From Methylocystis sp. B8 (GTDB taxonomy: Bacteria; Pseudomonadota; Alphaproteobacteria; Rhizobiales; Beijerinckiaceae), in the NCBI RefSeq assembly GCF_005771425.1, contig NZ_VBTZ01000008.1:62001-126000 (forward strand): 64,000 nt of DNA, written 5' to 3'. How positions within the stretch are numbered: the stretch's first letter is position 1; each line of letters opens with the position of its first letter. Below the pieces are notes generated by a model that was not told the DNA's origin, made no database searches, and saw nothing but the letters and a program-made list of their open reading frames with translations. Shown here in pieces: positions 1-21,968 of this stretch. The translations under genes were made by a program, and so were the position numbers.

Positions 1-1180
1 CCGCGCCGGGCGTCTGCTGGGGATTATTTCTACACATTGGCGCGCGCCGCATGCACCGACCGAAATCGATTTACGTCAGTTTGATATCCTCGCGCGCCAG
101 GCGGCGGACCTCATCGATCGCGTCGAATCGGTTCAAAGGTTGCGTGCCGCGGAACATCGCCTGCGTCTCGCCGCGGACGCCGCGCATCTAACCTATATCG
201 ACGCGGATTTCTCGCGCCGCTGCATCCGATCAGGGGAAAATTTCGCTACGGTCATGGGATACGCCCTTCCAACGCCATCCCCAGGGCAAGAGGTCGACCT
301 CTCTGTCGCTGCATCCATTCTACGCCGACATGTCGTTTCCAATGACCGGACGAAAACGAGGGCCGCGGTCATGGAACTATTGCGCGGCAAGCCGAGCGGA
401 AAGATCGAGTGCCGAGTGCTAGGCGACGACGGGATGGAACGCTGGATCGAAAGCATATGGTCTATCGAGACTGCCCACGACGGCTCACCCGTGTCCGCCT
501 TTGTGACCGGCCTCGACATAACCGAAAGAAAGCGCACGGAGGAGCAAATTCGATTACTTATGAGCGAAGTCAATCATCGATCAAAGAATCTGCTCAACGT
601 TGTGCAGGCGATTGCGCGTCTGACAGCTCGCGGCGGCGATCCTGCAACGTTCGTTGAACGATTGTCGCAGCGGATCGACTCGTTGGCGGCAAGTCAGGAT
701 CTCTTGGTCAAGAACGACTGGCGCGGGATTGATATGAGGGAGCTCGCCAAGGCGCAGCTCGCGCATCTGGGTGATTCAATCGCCCAAAGCCGGGTCCAAA
801 TGGAGGGGCTGAGCGTCCGTCTAACGCCCGCGGCGGCTCAAGGCGTTGGCATGGCTCTACATGAACTCGCGACCAATGCCGTCAAATATGGGGCGCTATC
901 TAACGCTCGAGGACTCGTGCGCATAACGTGGCGCATTGCTCGCTCGGACCAACCTACGTTCCTAGTTGAATGGAGAGAAAGAGGGGGACCGAAAACTGGT
1001 CCGCCGACTCACAAGGGTTTCGGACATACAGTCATTGAGCGGATGGCGTCATCTTCTGTCAGAGGGACGGTCGAGATGAAATATCCTCCAAGTGGACTTT
1101 GGTGGCGACTATCGGCTCCCGCCGAAAACGTGCTCGAGGGGGGAGTTCGTTCGAAGACAGCGGAGCTATCGATCCCCTGA
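1..1180 (+). CDS. HWE-family sensor histidine kinase, 5' truncated by window edge
   Basis: The reading frame is open from base 2, so the gene begins outside the window. The first ~45 visible residues resemble the end of a GAF domain (LGIISTHWRAP followed by ARQAADLI). A PAS domain follows, ending in VTGLDITERKRTEEQI, then an HWE/HisKA_2 kinase core: phospho-acceptor His in SEVNHRSKNLLNVVQAI, an N-box with HELATNAVKYGALS, and a G1-region WRERGG matching the W-x-E signature of HWE kinases. No membrane segment is visible, so it is probably a soluble sensor. HWE kinases in this class often feed PhyR-type general stress signalling or stand-alone receivers; a decayed receiver gene lies near 7.1 kb, but pairing is only inference. 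Confidence 0.9.
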   Translation, partial: RAGRLLGIISTHWRAPHAPTEIDLRQFDILARQAADLIDRVESVQRLRAAEHRLRLAADAAHLTYIDADFSRRCIRSGENFATVMGYALPTPSPGQEVDLSVAASILRRHVVSNDRTKTRAAVMELLRGKPSGKIECRVLGDDGMERWIESIWSIETAHDGSPVSAFVTGLDITERKRTEEQIRLLMSEVNHRSKNLLNVVQAIARLTARGGDPATFVERLSQRIDSLAASQDLLVKNDWRGIDMRELAKAQLAHLGDSIAQSRVQMEGLSVRLTPAAAQGVGMALHELATNAVKYGALSNARGLVRITWRIARSDQPTFLVEWRERGGPKTGPPTHKGFGHTVIERMASSSVRGTVEMKYPPSGLWWRLSAPAENVLEGGVRSKTAELSIP

Positions 1181-1907: not shown

Positions 1908-3242
1908 CTAAACGGTCGACGTCTGACATTGATGCTGAAACCATTCGAGATCGTCACGAACTGGAACAAATATCGGATCAAACCGGCCTTCTAAAAAGAA
2001 GCGGATCATTTCTGCTGATGCGTCCGGACCATTTGAATCCGTGTGCGAAGCCGCCGCGCAACCGCCTGACCAGGCATGGCCAAGACCTTCCACTAACCAA
2101 TGTTCAGCGTGGGGCGCACAGCTGCCGTCAAAAATGGACGTGCGAAAATATCTTCGCCCCCGCCCCTCGCCGACAAATCTTGCGCTAGAGGTCGAATCAA
2201 TACTGCAGGCCTGAGCAAAAATTGTGTTCGAGTTGCATGGATGGACTTGGCAGTCATCCGTTCCGTGAAACACTATCGTGCGCACCGGTTCCGCAAAGAC
2301 TGATCGGCAGAAGTGTTTCGTGATTACATCTCCTCGCATCGCCCTCAGCGCCGACTCCAGGTCCACCGCACAACCATAGGGGAGCCCGGAATGAATGCCT
2401 GCCGCGGCGTACAATTCGGGATATGTGGCGGTTAGAACGGCGGCCATCGCGCCCCCGGCAGACAATCCCGCGATGTAAACGTGGTCGTGATCGATTTCGA
2501 AGTCTTGAATCACTTGACGCGTAATGCCGGCGATAATCGATGGTTCGCCAGAGTCCCGACGCTGATGCCCCGGCTTATACCAGTTCCAGCACCGCATTCG
2601 ATTGGCGTCCAGAGCCTGACAAGGATAGGCGACGACGAACCCGTGTCTCTCCGCGAGAAGGTTCATGTTAGTGCCGCCGGAGAAATCGTGGGAGGTTTGG
2701 CCGCAGCCGTGCAGCATCACTATCAGCGCTGCGTTGGCCCGGATATGGTTTGGAAGGTAAAGTGAGTATTCTCGTGCTCCGTGCTCGCCATGAAATGTTC
2801 GTGTTGGGTAGGCACCGTTTGCGGGGGTGGATATAGAAGAAAACGACCGCTGGGCATCCTGATTAGGAGTGGCCAGAGCCGAGATATTTTGCAGCGGCCT
2901 CTTCCGACAGTTCTCGTCAAATTCCGTCATTCCCATCCGACCCAGCGTTGCTTGGACAGCAGCGATTGCTCCCCAACGCTCAACTGCTCCGGCGAAGACT
3001 TGTTCCTTTGTGTGAGAGCCGATGGATCGCGTCTGATCAGGAAGCGACGCTCCTCGCTTCGATTGATGAGATCTACAGTGAATGTTCGCCAACTCCGATT
3101 TGTTGGAGCAGGCCCAGAAGGTACGCTCTGCGCCCTCAACTGGGAGAGGGAGACGCAGGCGCCGCCGATAGCGCTGCGCAACCTCTGAAGCTCTGCCGAG
3201 CGGGTTGGCATGTCCAGGATCGTTCCAACTTTGGCGAGCCAA
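1908..3242 (-). CDS. PHB-depolymerase-family esterase (LpqC-like alpha/beta hydrolase)
   Basis: The C-terminal ~300 residues form an alpha/beta-hydrolase of the polyhydroxybutyrate depolymerase/esterase type: oxyanion region VMLHGCGQTSHDF, nucleophile elbow GLSAGGAM, acid residue in FHGTDD and catalytic His in GLGHAWSGG. CWNWYKPGHQRRDSGEPS is typical of this family. Expected role: hydrolysis of short-chain polyhydroxyalkanoate or other esters. The first ~140 residues match nothing I know, and another minus frame (2927-3274) is also open and begins MSFGNSRTLSAWLAKVGTI, so the true N-terminus may be in that frame with a frameshift between. No signal peptide is evident in the frame used. Confidence 0.75.
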   Translation of the reverse strand: MARQSWNDPGHANPLGRASEVAQRYRRRLRLPLPVEGAERTFWACSNKSELANIHCRSHQSKRGASLPDQTRSIGSHTKEQVFAGAVERWGAIAAVQATLGRMGMTEFDENCRKRPLQNISALATPNQDAQRSFSSISTPANGAYPTRTFHGEHGAREYSLYLPNHIRANAALIVMLHGCGQTSHDFSGGTNMNLLAERHGFVVAYPCQALDANRMRCWNWYKPGHQRRDSGEPSIIAGITRQVIQDFEIDHDHVYIAGLSAGGAMAAVLTATYPELYAAAGIHSGLPYGCAVDLESALRAMRGDVITKHFCRSVFAEPVRTIVFHGTDDCQVHPCNSNTIFAQACSIDSTSSARFVGEGRGRRYFRTSIFDGSCAPHAEHWLVEGLGHAWSGGCAAASHTDSNGPDASAEMIRFFLEGRFDPIFVPVRDDLEWFQHQCQTSTV

Positions 3243-3443
3243 GCGCTCAACGTTCTACTATTACCGAAAGACACCCTGATCTAACGCGCGCCGCTTGCGC
3301 CCCGCAGGGTCGGAACATTGACCAACGCTTTGAGTTTTAGCCGATCCCTCAATCACAATCTCTGGCTCGATGGCGATGACACAATCGCGGCTAATGCCCA
3401 ACGACGATTGCGACGGCTTCGCTTGGGACAGAAGAGGCTTTCG

Positions 3444-4270
3444 ATGAAGATTCGCGCCGGCTATGAAATCTCCTATGACTGCCCCGCAGTCGACGCCAAT
3501 GATTCTGACGCTCAGCGTTCATCCGTCACGCTTCGCAGATGTGCTGAGCGGATCGCATGCGCCTCGATCCGCACGTCACCGCCAACACCTATTACGATAG
3601 TTTTGGCAACTTTTGCCATGTCATCCGCGCTCCTGTGGGCCGGCTAACAATGTCCTCTGACTTTCTTGTGCAAGACAACGGCAAGCCTGAGCCAATCGCC
3701 GCGGAGGCCGAGCAGCATGCGCTCGAAGACCTGCCGGTGGAGGTTCTGATTTATCTGCTCGGCAGCCGTTACTGCGAGACCGATCGCTTGTCCGATTTGG
3801 CATGGTCGCTGTTTGGCCATGTTTCGAAGGGTTGGCCGTTGGTGCAGGCGATCTGCGACTATGTCCATGATCGCATCCGGTTCGATTACCAGCATGCGAG
3901 CGCAACAAGAACAGCATATGACGCCAACACAGAACAACGTGGCGTGTGCCGAGACTTCGCCCATCTGGCAGTCGCGTTGTGCCGCTGTATGAATATTCCC
4001 GCGCGTTACTGCACCGGCTATCTCGGGGATATCGGTGTGCCGGCCGACGAAGCCGCGATGGATTTCAGCGCCTGGTTCGAAGTGTATCTCGGCGGCCGTT
4101 GGCACACATTGGACGCCCGCCACAACAAGCCGCGGATCGGGCGTATTCTGATCGCGCGGGGACGCGATGCTACCGACGTCGCGATGGTAACGTCCTTTGG
4201 CCCGTGCACGCTCGCGAGCTTCAGGGTAATTTCGAAAGAGATCACTGCGTCGACGCCTGCGATGCCGTGA
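3444..4270 (+). pseudogene. transglutaminase-like protease, two frameshifts near the 5' end
   Basis: The family's usual N-terminus is spread over three frames: MKIRAGYEISYDCPA from the ATG at 3444, then PMILTLSVHPSRFADVL in the next frame (from ~3496), then RLDPHVTANTYYDSFGNFCH in the third (from ~3560). The last frame stays open to 4270 and holds the transglutaminase core with catalytic Cys in RGVCRDFAHL and the His/Asp pair in WHTLDARHN. Such proteins are cytoplasmic Cys-protease-fold enzymes of uncertain substrate. Translation from the ATG at 3557 would give a 237-residue product lacking part of the beta-sandwich N-domain. Two independent shifts suggest decay or sequence errors rather than programmed frameshifting. 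Confidence 0.75.
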
Positions 4271-4373
4271 CGCGGAAAGTCTTTATGAACTTCAGCAGAA
4301 CTTTATTTCCGCCTGAGCTAAAGAAACCGAGCCGCTTCCAAACCCGTTGTGCGTTCATCACATAAGAGGGCGA

Positions 4374-5720
4374 TCACTCAAGGCTCGAAGGACCAGTATT
4401 CTCGAGCTGTTGCTCGCGTGAAGAGGTCAGCCAAGCGAGCGTGAGAAATCCGGCCGCGGCCGAGGTGAGCGAGGCGCTAAAAACGCCAATCTTAACCGAG
4501 TCGACAAAGTGGGGCTCGAAAGCCAGTTCAGCAATGAAGATTGCCATGGTGAAGCCGATGCCAGTCAAAAGGCTGCCAGAGGCCAGCAGACCCCATGAGA
4601 GCTGGGGAGGACGGGTCGCAAGGCGCAGCGTCACGGACAGAAAGCTGAAAAGCACAATCCCGATAGGCTTGCCTACGACAAAGGCGGCAAAAACCGTGAT
4701 TGCAAGAGTTTGGTCGAAGCTGACCGACGCCAAGGACACACCCGCATTTGCCAGGGCGAAGAGCGGCAAGATCATGAATGCGACCCAGGGATGAAGGGCG
4801 AACTCAAGGCGCTCGATCGGTGACACGGCCTCGCGGGCGGCAACCCCAGCCTGACGGAGGTCGCGCCGCGCCGCACCGTCATCGCTCCAGTCTTCGCGCG
4901 GAGGATAGGCGATCACACGGTCGAGAATCGCGTGAAGGCGCCGATCGCTCACCCAGCTCCGTGCGGGCGTCATCAATCCGAGGACGATGCCAGTGAGTGT
5001 CGCGTGGATGCCCGACGCATCGAGCGCCAACCAGATGCCGGCACCTACCGCGAAATATATGAGAACGCTGCGTATGCCAAGACGCGCAATCCCAGCCACG
5101 ACGGCGAGTCCGAATCCAGCGAAGCCGATCGCGATCCAGTTCAAGGCTCCCCCATAGCCGATTGCCACCACGAGTACGGCTCCGATATCGTCAAAAATTG
5201 CCACAGAAAGCAAAAAGAGCCGCAAGCTTTGCGAAATGCGAGAACCGAGCGCTGCAAGGCACCCCATAGCAAAAGCCGTGTCTGTGGAGATAACCGCACC
5301 CCACCCGCCCGCACCAGGCCCACCGCGGATCAGCAGCAGATAAAGGCCAACAGGCGCCACCATGCCGCCAACAGCCGCCGCGAGAGGAAACGCCGCCATT
5401 CGTGGGTCGCGCAGCTCTCCCAGGATCAGTTCACGTTTCAGCTCAAGTGCAAGGACGAAAAAAAAGAGCGTCATCAGCCCGTCGTTGATCCAACTCTTCA
5501 ACGAACGAGAGAACTCGATGTCTCCCAGCCTGAACCCAGCGTTGATATTCCACATCGCCATAAATTGCATGGACCACGCCGCATTGGCGAGCGCCAAAGC
5601 AACAAGCGTGCTTAGCAACAGTACAGCCCCGGCCATAGACTCAATACGCAGGAACCGCATCAACGGCTGCGTAAACCAGTCTGCTGGCACCTCGGGAAGA
5701 CGCGTGCGGCTATCGCCCAT
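4374..5720 (-). CDS. nhaA: Na+/H+ antiporter NhaA
   Basis: A 448-residue multi-pass membrane protein of the NhaA family, which exchanges cytoplasmic Na+ for periplasmic H+ electrogenically. Hallmarks are the TDTAFAMGCLAAL segment (Asp of helix IV region) and AIFDDIGAV, carrying the paired Asp residues of the ion-binding site. Length is close to the usual 390-450. The start ATG follows a short leader and the first helix begins around residue 28. It is flanked by the transglutaminase remnant (convergent) and a decayed small membrane gene, so it appears to be a stand-alone transcription unit. It is one of the few intact genes in this eroded region. Confidence 0.95.
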   Translation of the reverse strand: MGDSRTRLPEVPADWFTQPLMRFLRIESMAGAVLLLSTLVALALANAAWSMQFMAMWNINAGFRLGDIEFSRSLKSWINDGLMTLFFFVLALELKRELILGELRDPRMAAFPLAAAVGGMVAPVGLYLLLIRGGPGAGGWGAVISTDTAFAMGCLAALGSRISQSLRLFLLSVAIFDDIGAVLVVAIGYGGALNWIAIGFAGFGLAVVAGIARLGIRSVLIYFAVGAGIWLALDASGIHATLTGIVLGLMTPARSWVSDRRLHAILDRVIAYPPREDWSDDGAARRDLRQAGVAAREAVSPIERLEFALHPWVAFMILPLFALANAGVSLASVSFDQTLAITVFAAFVVGKPIGIVLFSFLSVTLRLATRPPQLSWGLLASGSLLTGIGFTMAIFIAELAFEPHFVDSVKIGVFSASLTSAAAGFLTLAWLTSSREQQLENTGPSSLE

Positions 5721-19184: not shown

Positions 19185-19214
19185 CGCGCCGCGGCAGTTG
19201 ATTGTCGCGGCGCG
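19185..19214 (+). terminator. GC-rich stem-loop after the prk operon
   Basis: CGCGCCGCG and CGCGGCGCG are exact inverted repeats 12 bases apart, 15 bases after the rpe stop. There is no T-run, so it may be a transcript-end stabiliser rather than an intrinsic terminator. Confidence 0.35.
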
Positions 19215-19239
19215 GCGCGCTATCGCCTCACCAGCGCAT

Positions 19240-19314
19240 TGGGGCGTCGCCAAGCGGTAAGGCAGCGGATTTTGATTCCGCCATACGGAGGTTCGAATCC
19301 TCCCGCCCCAGCCA
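19240..19314 (+). tRNA. tRNA-Gln (TTG anticodon)
   Basis: 75 nt including encoded CCA. Acceptor TGGGGCG pairs fully with CGCCCCA; D-arm GCCAAGCGGTAAGGC; anticodon stem GCGGA/TCCGC with loop TTTTGAT (anticodon TTG); T-arm GGAGGTTCGAATCCTCC. The 3' 71 bases recur at 20720-20790. Confidence 0.96.
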
Positions 19315-19479
19315 GCGCCACTTCACGACGTCAAACACCGCTACCGGCCACCGTCCGCCACGGCGGCAGGCGCAATTAACTGCCACCGATGCCGGGGCAA
19401 TGTGACCAACAGAAGCTGAAGCGGACTAAATTAAAAACGCGGCGCTACTCTTGATCGCCAGGAAAAATTGTAAGCCAAA

Positions 19480-20706
19480 ATGAGCATGCGCATAAGCATA
19501 GAAGCTCGGGAGCGTGACTTTGAGCCTGCGTTGACTTGGATCGGCGGTCTGGTCGGCGCCGCTCTGGACAAGCGTGTTGCTGCTTTCCGGGCCCAGGAAC
19601 TCAAGAACCCGCTTCTCGCTACTCATTTTCGCGAGACCTTCGCCTTGGAGTTCGCGCTCGTCAAAGCTCGCAAATACCGCCGGCAAACAGGCCGCCTGCC
19701 AAAGGGAGGCGAGTATGACCCACTTTACTGTTTTCTCATCGCGACCCAACGTATTCACGCAGCACTACCAGCGAACGTGCGAACGCCTTTCGAAGGCAGG
19801 TTACGTGATGCCTTGAATGGCGCCTATGGCCTCCGACCATTTGCCTACGAGATAAGCATTGCCACGCATCTCATGCAGCGAGGTTGGGACGTGGAATTCG
19901 CCGACTATGCCCAGATGGGACGTTTCGACTTTCTCGCACGCCAGGGCAGGCGCGAAATCGAAATTGAGTGCAAGAGCACGTCGGGCGACACCGGCCGGAA
20001 AATCCACCGCCAGGAAGTCAATCGACTTGCCGACCTGTTACTGCCGACTACCGAGCGGGTAGCGGACATCGCCGGATGTCATCGCATTTTGCTGACGATT
20101 CCTGACCGCCTCGGAAAATCGAGTGAGACACTATCGGGTGTCGCCTCGATCCTAGCGCAAGCTGTAGATCAGAAGGGTATAGCGTCGAGCGAGCTCGCGC
20201 GCGCCGAGTATACACTCGACAACATCGCCCATTGGCCGCAGCCGGGCCTGGACCCGGATGCGAAATCCTTCTTCGAAACGCGCTTTGGTTATTACAACTC
20301 GCATCTTCTGTTTCATGGCCGAAAGAATTTCTCCACTGTGGCCGTTATGATCCGAAGCGACAAGGCCGACACTGTTGTCGATGCGCTATCAAATGCCGCA
20401 AAGGAGGCGGCCGACCAATGCAGCGGAACAAGACCGGCGCTGATCGCAATGCACCTGATTGACAGAATCAGCCGGCCTGAACTCAAATCGCTGCTTGAGA
20501 CAGGTAGCGGACTACACGCGGTTATGCATGCCTTGCTCCGGAGTGGAAAGCGGCAGCATATCGATTCGGTCGCCTTTACGGTTCCGCAATACATCCGACC
20601 GGATGGCGTCGGCGCTAGGCGGCTCTCCGGCGACTTGCTCGTCCTCAACAATCCGCAACCGCTCTTCCCCTGTGATGAAATCCGCTCGATATTTCGATCG
20701 CCTTAG
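19480..20706 (+). CDS. PD-(D/E)xK-nuclease-like protein in a tRNA-flanked cassette
   Basis: A 408-residue soluble protein I cannot assign to a named family. In the middle it has D150 (QMGRFDFLA) followed by E163-x-K165 (EIEIECKS), the spacing and hydrophobic-strand context of PD-(D/E)xK nucleases, preceded by a helix-strand pair (SIATHLMQRGWDVEFADY) as in the nuclease core. The N-terminal 110 residues are helical; the C-terminal half has alternating strands and helices without recognised motifs. It fills the cassette between two tRNA-Gln copies almost completely. A role in defence or DNA processing is inference from the fold motif and location. A second ATG at 19486 is possible. Confidence 0.8.
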   Translation: MSMRISIEARERDFEPALTWIGGLVGAALDKRVAAFRAQELKNPLLATHFRETFALEFALVKARKYRRQTGRLPKGGEYDPLYCFLIATQRIHAALPANVRTPFEGRLRDALNGAYGLRPFAYEISIATHLMQRGWDVEFADYAQMGRFDFLARQGRREIEIECKSTSGDTGRKIHRQEVNRLADLLLPTTERVADIAGCHRILLTIPDRLGKSSETLSGVASILAQAVDQKGIASSELARAEYTLDNIAHWPQPGLDPDAKSFFETRFGYYNSHLLFHGRKNFSTVAVMIRSDKADTVVDALSNAAKEAADQCSGTRPALIAMHLIDRISRPELKSLLETGSGLHAVMHALLRSGKRQHIDSVAFTVPQYIRPDGVGARRLSGDLLVLNNPQPLFPCDEIRSIFRSP

Positions 20707-20715
20707 TCCAGCGAG

Positions 20716-20790
20716 TAGAGCGTCGCCAAGCGGTAAGGCAGCGGATTTTGATTCCGCCATACGGAGGTTCGAATCCTCCCGCCCCAGCCA
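20716..20790 (+). pseudogene. partial tRNA-Gln copy with damaged acceptor stem
   Basis: Identical to the tRNA-Gln at 19240 from its fifth base to CCA, but the first bases read TAGAG instead of TGGGG, giving mismatches at acceptor pairs 2 and 4. It is probably not a working tRNA and marks the right repeat of the cassette. Confidence 0.7.
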
Positions 20791-20805
20791 ATACAATAAT
20801 TAGCG

Positions 20806-21456
20806 CTAGCCCACCTTGCTGTCCTTCAGCAGGCCGACGAGCGGGTTTGGCGTCGGGGGCGCGATCCGCCGCAGGGTATTTGTGTCGTGATGGTTGAACG
20901 GCGGCGTGTTGCCGCGTAGGGCTAGATCCGTTCGCGTCAAATAGGTCCAGCTATCGTCGTCGTTGAAGTTGATGTCGATTCGGTAATAGTCGGTGCGAAA
21001 CGCCTCTTCCAGGATGCTCGTGGAGCAAATGCCGAAGCGGCTGTCGCCACGCCGCGCCTCGACCGAAATGCGCGCGTCATCGGGCTTGGCCGTGCCGCCC
21101 GCCAGCACGACTTGTCCGCGCGGGATCGCGATGGTTTGCATGATCAGGCCCGTGGCCGGCTCCCAGAGCCAATAGCCTACCTGATCGTGAAAGGTGATCG
21201 CCTCCTCCGCAGTGTTGATATGGATGTGATAGCGCAGACCATAGAGGAGCTGAGGACCGTTCGTCTGCGGGTCGATCGGGTCCATCCGGATATGCTCGCG
21301 ATAGGCGCGCGTTTCCGGACCCGCGGCCTTGGGATTGACGTCCATGCCTTGATCGGACTGCCACACGCCAGCCAGGCGGCGCAACGGACCGAGATTGGCG
21401 AGCGTGTCGGGGGAGAACTCAGGTTCGGTAAAAATATCTTCCGGAATGCTGCACAC
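20806..21456 (-). CDS. heme-binding beta-barrel (nitrobindin/DUF1794-like) protein
   Basis: About 216 residues from a GTG at 21456, chosen because AAGGA lies eight bases upstream; the open frame extends further upstream without family-like sequence. The region LGPLRRLAGVWQSDQGMDV resembles the G-x-W start of the 10-stranded fatty-acid-binding/nitrobindin barrel, and the C-terminal FNHHDTNTLRR carries the His region that binds heme in nitrobindins. Related proteins bind ferric heme and isomerise peroxynitrite; others in this family have unknown ligands. No signal peptide. It is convergent with the nuclease cassette and ends 16 bp from the second tRNA copy. Confidence 0.75.
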   Translation of the reverse strand: MCSIPEDIFTEPEFSPDTLANLGPLRRLAGVWQSDQGMDVNPKAAGPETRAYREHIRMDPIDPQTNGPQLLYGLRYHIHINTAEEAITFHDQVGYWLWEPATGLIMQTIAIPRGQVVLAGGTAKPDDARISVEARRGDSRFGICSTSILEEAFRTDYYRIDINFNDDDSWTYLTRTDLALRGNTPPFNHHDTNTLRRIAPPTPNPLVGLLKDSKVG

Positions 21457-21968
21457 TTTCCGTGTCCTTTCTCGCTCATTTGAGCCGCTTGCGATTGAAA
21501 ACTTGCTCGGACTGATTTCAAGCAACAAATTTGCCGATCTGGCGTCGGCGCTCGTCACGGCGGCTCGCTGCTGAGACATTCGTGATGCCGCCAATTTGCC
21601 GATTTCGAGAAGTTGCCGCGAGCGATATTCGCTAAGCGCGCTGCGACCATCGACGTGAACAGGCGACGGATTGACGGACCGCTGCGGACGTGAACCGCGA
21701 CGAACGCACACGTGCGCGGGCGCACTGCGTCTTCCAATGAGACGCGCAATAGTCCCAACGTTGCAAAAACCCTTAGCTTTTCGAAGCGATCGGGGCCGGC
21801 TGCTAAAGCGCCGGCCCTTTTTTGCGCTGCCTACTCGGCCTCTTTTAACGAAGCGCCGGCTGCGAGCGATATCACCCGAATGATGGCTGATCTACAGCCG
21901 ATCCGTTGCGTTGCGGCCGCATTTGTTCTCAAATCGCAATCCTTTACGCATCACGTCGGATCGCCCGC
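21457..21968 (+). other. intergenic region with an orphan terminator
   Basis: About 510 bases between divergent genes. No open frame on either strand has a recognisable product. The only clear signal is the hairpin plus T-run at 21793-21823, with no plus-strand gene upstream of it. Confidence 0.5.
21793..21823 (+). terminator. rho-independent terminator without an upstream gene
   Basis: GGGCCGGC and GCCGGCCC form a perfect 8-bp stem around a 9-nt loop, followed by six T. On the plus strand nothing coding ends here, so it may close a small RNA or isolate gldA from upstream transcription. Confidence 0.75.

Follow-up and report, generated by a model that had tools for sequence, protein, structure and literature searches.

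A nuclease core of the PD-(D/E)xK type has the order alpha-beta-beta-beta-alpha-beta, and such a core is part of Shedu (SduA, DUF4263), a single-gene phage-defence protein of about 400 residues. Islands integrated at tRNA genes by a tyrosine integrase are recognized by one intact tRNA gene, a duplicated tRNA segment at the far end, and empty sites in relatives. A study on E. coli describes defence islands at tRNA hotspots that in most cases retain an integrase or recombinase and whose mobilisation is unclear (PMC10121019). In this study, the tRNA-Gln locus of Methylocystis sp. B8 was analysed within a 64-kb stretch of DNA, here called the window. The locus shares with the tyrosine-integrase islands the intact tRNA, the duplicated segment, and the empty sites, but its insert lacks an integrase, measures only 1.4 kb, and is bounded by a repeat that begins at tRNA base 5 and not near the anticodon loop. 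As in the E. coli islands of that study (PMC10121019), cargo is found at a tRNA site and its mobilisation is unclear; in contrast to them, neither an integrase nor a recombinase is present, and the defence role is putative. The whole is read, with a modest degree of confidence, as the remnant of a tRNA island that has lost its integrase and in which a stand-alone gene with a PD-(D/E)xK nuclease core has been preserved, most likely for anti-phage defence. The features are collected in Table 1.

Table 1. Features of the tRNA-Gln locus in the window and of the encoded 408-aa protein.
Feature	Position	Strand	Basis
tRNA-Gln(TTG), intact, attL-like	19240..19314	+	ARAGORN (ttg), Rfam, fold; after rpe as in most relatives read
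71-bp direct repeat, left copy (tRNA bases 5-75)	19244..19314	+	sequence identity
Non-coding left end of insert, probable 5' region of the gene	19315..19479	+	chance-like matches only in the family
ORF of the 408-aa protein	19480..20706	+	sole long ORF between the repeats
71-bp direct repeat, right copy, attR-like; part of tRNA-Gln pseudogene 20716-20790 with two acceptor mismatches	20720..20790	+	ARAGORN, Rfam, fold
Right flank, THAP4-like haem-binding-domain gene	20806..21711	-	directly after single tRNA-Gln in empty-site relatives
Helical N-terminus	residues 1-112		predicted model
PD-(D/E)xK core with E124, D150, E163, K165	residues about 119-207		predicted model and alignment
Alpha/beta C-terminus	residues about 208-408		predicted model

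An initial annotation of the locus had described identical 71-bp repeats that cover tRNA-Gln from base 5. This was borne out, as the two copies agree at 71 of 71 positions with a spacing of 1476 bp, ARAGORN calls a tRNA in both, and an identity of this length by chance is ruled out. The tRNA starts with TGGG in the left copy and with TAGA in the right copy; acceptor positions 2 and 4 of the latter are therefore A.C mismatches and two acceptor pairs are broken, as had also been claimed. The Rfam tRNA score is 62.6 bits for the left copy and 49.6 bits for the right one. The minimum-energy fold of the left copy keeps the seven-pair acceptor stem (-32.2 kcal/mol); this stem is lost in that of the right copy (-22.7 kcal/mol). 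A 28-base pattern of the tRNA-Gln 3' end, allowing up to two mismatches, occurs at only these two places in the host genome, and among the tRNA-Gln matches listed for 39 genomes of the genus, two are found only in Methylocystis sp. B8. Two ordinary paralogous tRNA-Gln genes were rejected as an explanation on the basis of this count and of the broken right acceptor stem. An assembly artefact was rejected as well, since it is at odds with the differing flanks and the unique insert.

The 1405 bases between the repeats contain one long ORF, on the plus strand and 408 codons long, which starts 165 bp past the left repeat and stops 13 bp ahead of the right repeat. This single gene, with D150 and E163-x-K165 at the positions given in the initial annotation, was confirmed, and so was the claim that no integrase lies inside: none is present in the ORF list between the repeats, and no integrase profile matched there. 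Because only 165 and 13 bp remain outside the ORF, the insert has no room for an integrase. Its G+C content is 57.0% versus 61.2% for the window, and the third-position G+C of the gene is 62.8% versus 71-86% in four neighbouring ORFs. Promoter and terminator scans of positions 19200-20850 found nothing.

The tRNA-Gln locus of Methylocystis sp. B8 is an insertion, at a site that is also used by other elements. Separate searches with the rpe-tRNA-Gln flank and with the THAP4-like flank were made in the 39 genomes of the genus, using the matches listed, and the locus was read in 17 relatives (L057-L073). Three of the 17 loci (G552, G549, and G553) are empty, with one intact tRNA-Gln and then directly the THAP4-like gene. 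When the flanks of the window were joined, they aligned collinearly across the junction with G552 (87.6% over 1756 columns) and G553 (89.6% over 1509 columns); with G549 they aligned in two pieces. These empty sites mean that a real insertion has therefore taken place in Methylocystis sp. B8, as supposed from the sequence alone, and that a second tRNA-Gln copy is not common to all relatives. Other DNA follows tRNA-Gln at 12 of the 17 loci, one of which (L071) ends about 110 bp on. The positions of the THAP4-like flank point to rearrangement at part of the 12 loci, not all of which need be insertions, because in G538 about 0.8 Mb separate this flank from tRNA-Gln, and in G532 the distance along the contig is about 3 Mb. 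In G535 and G536 it is found on the same contig about 51 and 56 kb from tRNA-Gln, and a 252-bp piece of it also occurs about 0.6 kb past tRNA-Gln in G535.

A large serine recombinase (Pfam Resolvase and Recombinase) is encoded close behind tRNA-Gln in G536 and G554, and the locus of G017 (L072), judged by eye, resembles these two. In G545 (L061, contig C65, about 3201-4500), tRNA-Gln is interrupted after about base 51 by an insert of about 1.25 kb, and the interrupted copy is the only tRNA-Gln(TTG) match for that genome among those listed. The 233-aa ORF of this insert matches the PADLOC candidate PDC-M30A (5.5e-21) and no Pfam family. In G557 (L060, contig C2, about 5599-5666), the tRNA-Gln copy just before the right flank carries an internal deletion, and its left side differs from the usual rpe region.

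No significant match to the 408-aa protein was found in curated libraries, with best E-values of 0.21 in Pfam, 0.072 in PHROGs, and 0.078 in NCBIfam and no match at E <= 1 in PADLOC, which agrees with its earlier designation as undescribed. PDB sequence searches with the protein and with the profile gave nothing meaningful, and no description of the family or the locus was found in the literature at title/abstract level. Homologues were detected in 2 of 149 family genomes by single-sequence search, one being its own genome, and by profile in 5 of 39 genus genomes (its own, two with distant near full-length homologues, and two with matches of fewer than 60 positions). The class yielded 8 of 385 genomes, its own and one weak 52-residue match included, and plasmids 15 of 72,556 records. 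A tblastn search of 50,697 phage records found no homologue, and in viral contigs a protein pattern likewise detected none and a 54-base piece of tRNA-Gln had no exact match. A pattern search of genome contigs gave 27 loci, the closest in Bradyrhizobium rifense (66%) and B. erythrophlei (62%). The protein family is thinly spread, mostly over proteobacterial chromosomes and plasmids.

Conservation was assessed in several alignments. Alignment A2 consists of the window protein and 11 of 23 homologues chosen by whole-protein similarity and not by motif; the interrupted G376, the short G431, and ten of the 15 plasmid hits were left out. In these 12 sequences, E124, D150, E163, K165, G172, and Q313 are invariant. 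Alignment A4 holds 24 of the 27 pattern loci (without L092, L106, and L113), and A5 also leaves out L089 and L090. As the pattern contained the ExK motif, its conservation in those rows reflects how they were selected. In the 25-row set, E124 is present in 25 of 25 and D150 in 24 of 25 rows. Among the A2 members, one matches Pfam HTH_31 (1.9e-4) and one PDDEXK_5 (0.0062); the homologue in G116 has an N-terminal extension that is helix-turn-helix-like. Interrupted homologues exist, e.g. L089, L090, and L092. Against the B. rifense gene, 118, 76, and 247 of 406 codons differ at codon positions 1, 2, and 3, with dS saturated, a pattern as would be expected under selection at the protein level. 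The gene is intact, and its predicted nuclease-like product is probably functional.

The PD-(D/E)xK assignment of the initial annotation was followed up by structure prediction. An AlphaFold model built from 25 sequences reached a pLDDT of 88.7 and a pTM of 0.87. It places helices at residues 119-133 and 177-195 and strands at 137-140, 151-155, 158-167, and 199-207, and their helix-strand-strand-strand-helix-strand order is that of the PD-(D/E)xK core. A restriction-endonuclease-like fold is accordingly predicted, and the assignment is supported by this core together with the four invariant residues listed in Table 1. In a Foldseek search against the PDB, every row with a probability of at least 0.5 among the best 50 of 390 is an archaeal Holliday junction resolvase, the top row by probability being 1gef_D (0.97, 49 columns, rmsd 1.9, with a weak E-value of 0.17 that is not bettered by any other Hjc chain). 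Rows with lower E-values have low probability and poor superposition, and the lowest E-value belongs to an unrelated carboxylase whose superposition is meaningless. None of these 50 rows matches the whole chain. In a viral structure library, the rows with a probability above 0.5 include PD(D/E)XK, VRR-NUC, and resolvase entries as well as several unnamed ones. The C-terminal domain modelled separately (pLDDT 82.8, pTM 0.53) had no convincing structural match.

The likeness to the archaeal PD-(D/E)xK resolvase Hjc consists of about 49 residues of the nuclease core that superpose in the model. The Hjc chains listed have 109-130 residues, whereas the 408-aa protein has large N- and C-terminal parts, and although Hjc is its sole Pfam match at E <= 1 (0.21), the score of 12 bits is below the cut-off of 21.1. 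With Shedu it has in common a single gene, a length of about 400 residues, and the predicted PD-(D/E)xK core; it differs in having no DUF4263 or PADLOC Shedu match and in the mid-chain position of the core. By analogy, the 408-aa protein may work like Shedu, of which it is not a member by profile. The predicted fold and the conserved residues suggest that it forms a so far uncatalogued branch within the PD-(D/E)xK superfamily. It would most likely cut DNA with a metal ion, and the helical N-terminus and the conserved C-terminal domain would control when or what it cuts.

The surroundings of the homologues were then considered with respect to defence. Nineteen hand-picked neighbour proteins from 12 of the 27 loci were scanned with PADLOC, and matches were found beside the homologue at 6 of the 12 loci, a fraction that refers to hand-picked proteins and was not compared with the rate for random genes. 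In B. rifense (L087:34-5987), PDC-M54A and PDC-M54B lie just upstream and co-directional; the homologue is possibly the third gene of a PDC-M54A/M54B candidate system. PLD_Helicase (L091) and PDC-M57B (L098) lie upstream of the homologue, an LmuB-like ATPase (L101) faces it, and a methyltransferase/PglX (L108) and SoFic (L089) are found about 2 and 3 kb away. No PADLOC match was obtained among the neighbours scanned at L088, L090, L100, L103, L104, and L112, and at L104 a serine recombinase is directly adjacent. Genes for ImmA/IrrE-like proteins and papain-like peptidases were seen near the homologues at L103, L107, L108, and L110, by Pfam in L103 and by eye in the others. A PADLOC scan of 25 members of the protein family itself gave one weak match to Cas56g (0.0063) and no other.

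The initial annotation had also raised the question whether homologues sit between tRNA repeats. None does at the 7 and 27 loci checked within 2.5-3 kb, several of which share contigs, some of which are cut by contig ends, and one of which (L106) is a fragment. Repeats of 25-34 bp in L053, L094, and L098 are away from tRNA genes. A tRNA is present on the examined stretch at 5 of the 27 loci, and the two nearest ones lie past the gene by about 220 bp (L099) and 360 bp (L095).

The genome of Methylocystis sp. B8 has 46 Rfam tRNA matches, one of them below the cut-off. The 45 tRNAs called by ARAGORN, both Gln copies among them, were compared with their 3' surroundings, taken as 43 stretches that ranged from 2 to 15 kb and in most cases measured 12 kb, to find a second copy of each; adjacent tRNAs and hits of only 12-13 bases were disregarded. 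Three tRNA genes have a downstream repeat, namely Gln (71 bp), Thr-tgt (37 bp, 1.9 kb away, L134, minus strand), and Pro-ggg (41 bp at 95%, 1.6 kb away, L163). No integrase was seen in the Thr(tgt) and Pro(ggg) inserts. The former contains an ORF with a weak YflT match, below the cut-off, and a GDSL lipase; it is mosaic, because a stretch of it has a 99% copy at another place in this genome and counterparts of 82-94% identity in several relatives. The ORFs of the Pro(ggg) insert are at most 138 aa long. A dispersed repeat of about 125 bp was observed in the Thr(tgt) insert (L134:9900-12250, minus strand, query bases 1365-1490). It has five or more additional copies in the genome of Methylocystis sp. 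B8 and numerous ones in the genus, and sequence akin to it was seen by eye in the tRNA-Pro insert.

Larger integrase-bearing islands also occur. At the Thr(tgt) site of the relative G557, about 14.7 kb end in a 47-bp repeat with a 426-aa tyrosine integrase beside the distal copy, and G530 has a 45-bp repeat about 23 kb from tRNA-Thr(tgt). In Methylocystis sp. B8, eight tyrosine-recombinase matches, probably seven genes, were found. With about 1.5 kb examined on each side, three of the eight loci have a tRNA repeat about 0.8-0.9 kb from the integrase domain, belonging to Gly-gcc (47 bp), Thr-cgt (41 bp), and Lys-ttt (23 and 16 bp), and none has a tRNA-Gln repeat. Islands of about 15, 18, and 76 kb are associated with the integrases at C23 near 136043, C26 near 17541, and C18 near 55506 (L118, L120, and L119; Gly-gcc, Thr-cgt, and Lys-ttt, respectively). 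The repeats start at tRNA base 29-30 for Gly, Thr-cgt, and Lys, at 36 for Thr-tgt, at 39 for Pro, at 30 in G557, and at 32 in G530, in comparison with base 5 for Gln. The extra 5' identity of the Gln repeat is unexplained by a crossover near the anticodon loop and is compatible with the action of another recombinase or with homologous recombination involving a tRNA copy that was almost complete.

The empty sites establish the insertion, and its course may be pictured as follows. An integrative element would have recombined into the tRNA-Gln(UUG) gene, so that the functional tRNA now lies on the left and a defective duplicate on the right; the integrase and other genes would then have been lost, with one cargo gene staying between the repeats. 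Such a later loss is suggested because this genome has two more small integrase-less inserts bounded by tRNA repeats, and because larger integrase-bearing islands occupy other tRNA genes here and in a relative. Loss of genes from a larger island is most likely, being the most economical reading of the insert. Against it, a larger island sharing these ends did not turn up, a recent insertion that had its present size from the start would likewise account for the perfect repeats and the intact gene, and the Gln repeat starts at base 5 when the other tRNA repeats start at bases 29-39. The initial annotation had favoured a minimal cassette, in which two tRNA-like att sites and one gene form a complete non-autonomous unit moved by an integrase in trans. 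This is quite unlikely, even though the perfect 71-bp repeats, the intact gene under apparent selection with 13 bp from its stop codon to the right repeat, and the presence in one genome of three small inserts alike in size would fit it. Among the matches listed for 298 family genomes, its own included, the left end has no second instance, the other 297 giving nothing but short matches of the kind expected by chance (23 bp at best, E 1e-4). Moreover, no checked homologue lies between tRNA repeats, none comes from phage records or viral contigs, and the repeats of the resident integrases are those of Gly, Thr, and Lys, with no tRNA-Gln repeat within about 1.5 kb of the eight integrase domains. 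Decay of an island is favoured over such a cassette because the two other small inserts have mosaic or short-ORF content.

Homologous recombination by a single crossover, bringing DNA with a tRNA-Gln copy (bases 5-75) and the nuclease gene into the chromosomal tRNA-Gln, would account for the missing integrase and for a repeat that spans nearly the whole tRNA, about 25 nt past the 5' edge of the other tRNA repeats. It is nevertheless judged improbable, as 71 bp is short for a RecA-dependent crossover and the serine recombinase behind tRNA-Gln in two relatives indicates that recombinase-driven insertion occurs there. Very improbable is a joint reading in which the Gln, Thr, and Pro inserts represent a class of tiny integrase-free cassettes (1.4-1.9 kb) with tRNA duplications, relying on borrowed recombinases or on homologous recombination of the whole tRNA, the Gln one with a stand-alone PD-(D/E)xK defence nuclease of an undescribed family. 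As to function, the proposal of a nuclease or defence factor stands for the nuclease part through the predicted core; defence is suggested by the homologue neighbours, but no curated defence model was matched. A mobile-element or housekeeping nuclease, e.g. for recombination, as a resolvase, or in plasmid stability, would agree with Hjc as the best core fold match and its subthreshold Pfam score, and with some homologues on plasmids near conjugation or replication genes. This alternative is rather unlikely in view of the patchy presence in genus and class, the PADLOC matches beside half of the homologues scanned, and the additional N- and C-terminal parts that are absent from Hjc. The homologue neighbours are suggestive of a putative role of the 408-aa protein in anti-phage defence.

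The insert at tRNA-Gln, with its empty counterparts in relatives, offers a clean case for studying the origin and persistence of inserts at tRNA genes that lack an integrase. It also adds an uncatalogued, predicted PD-(D/E)xK family that is sometimes found beside defence-type genes, and that is a clear candidate for phage-challenge tests.
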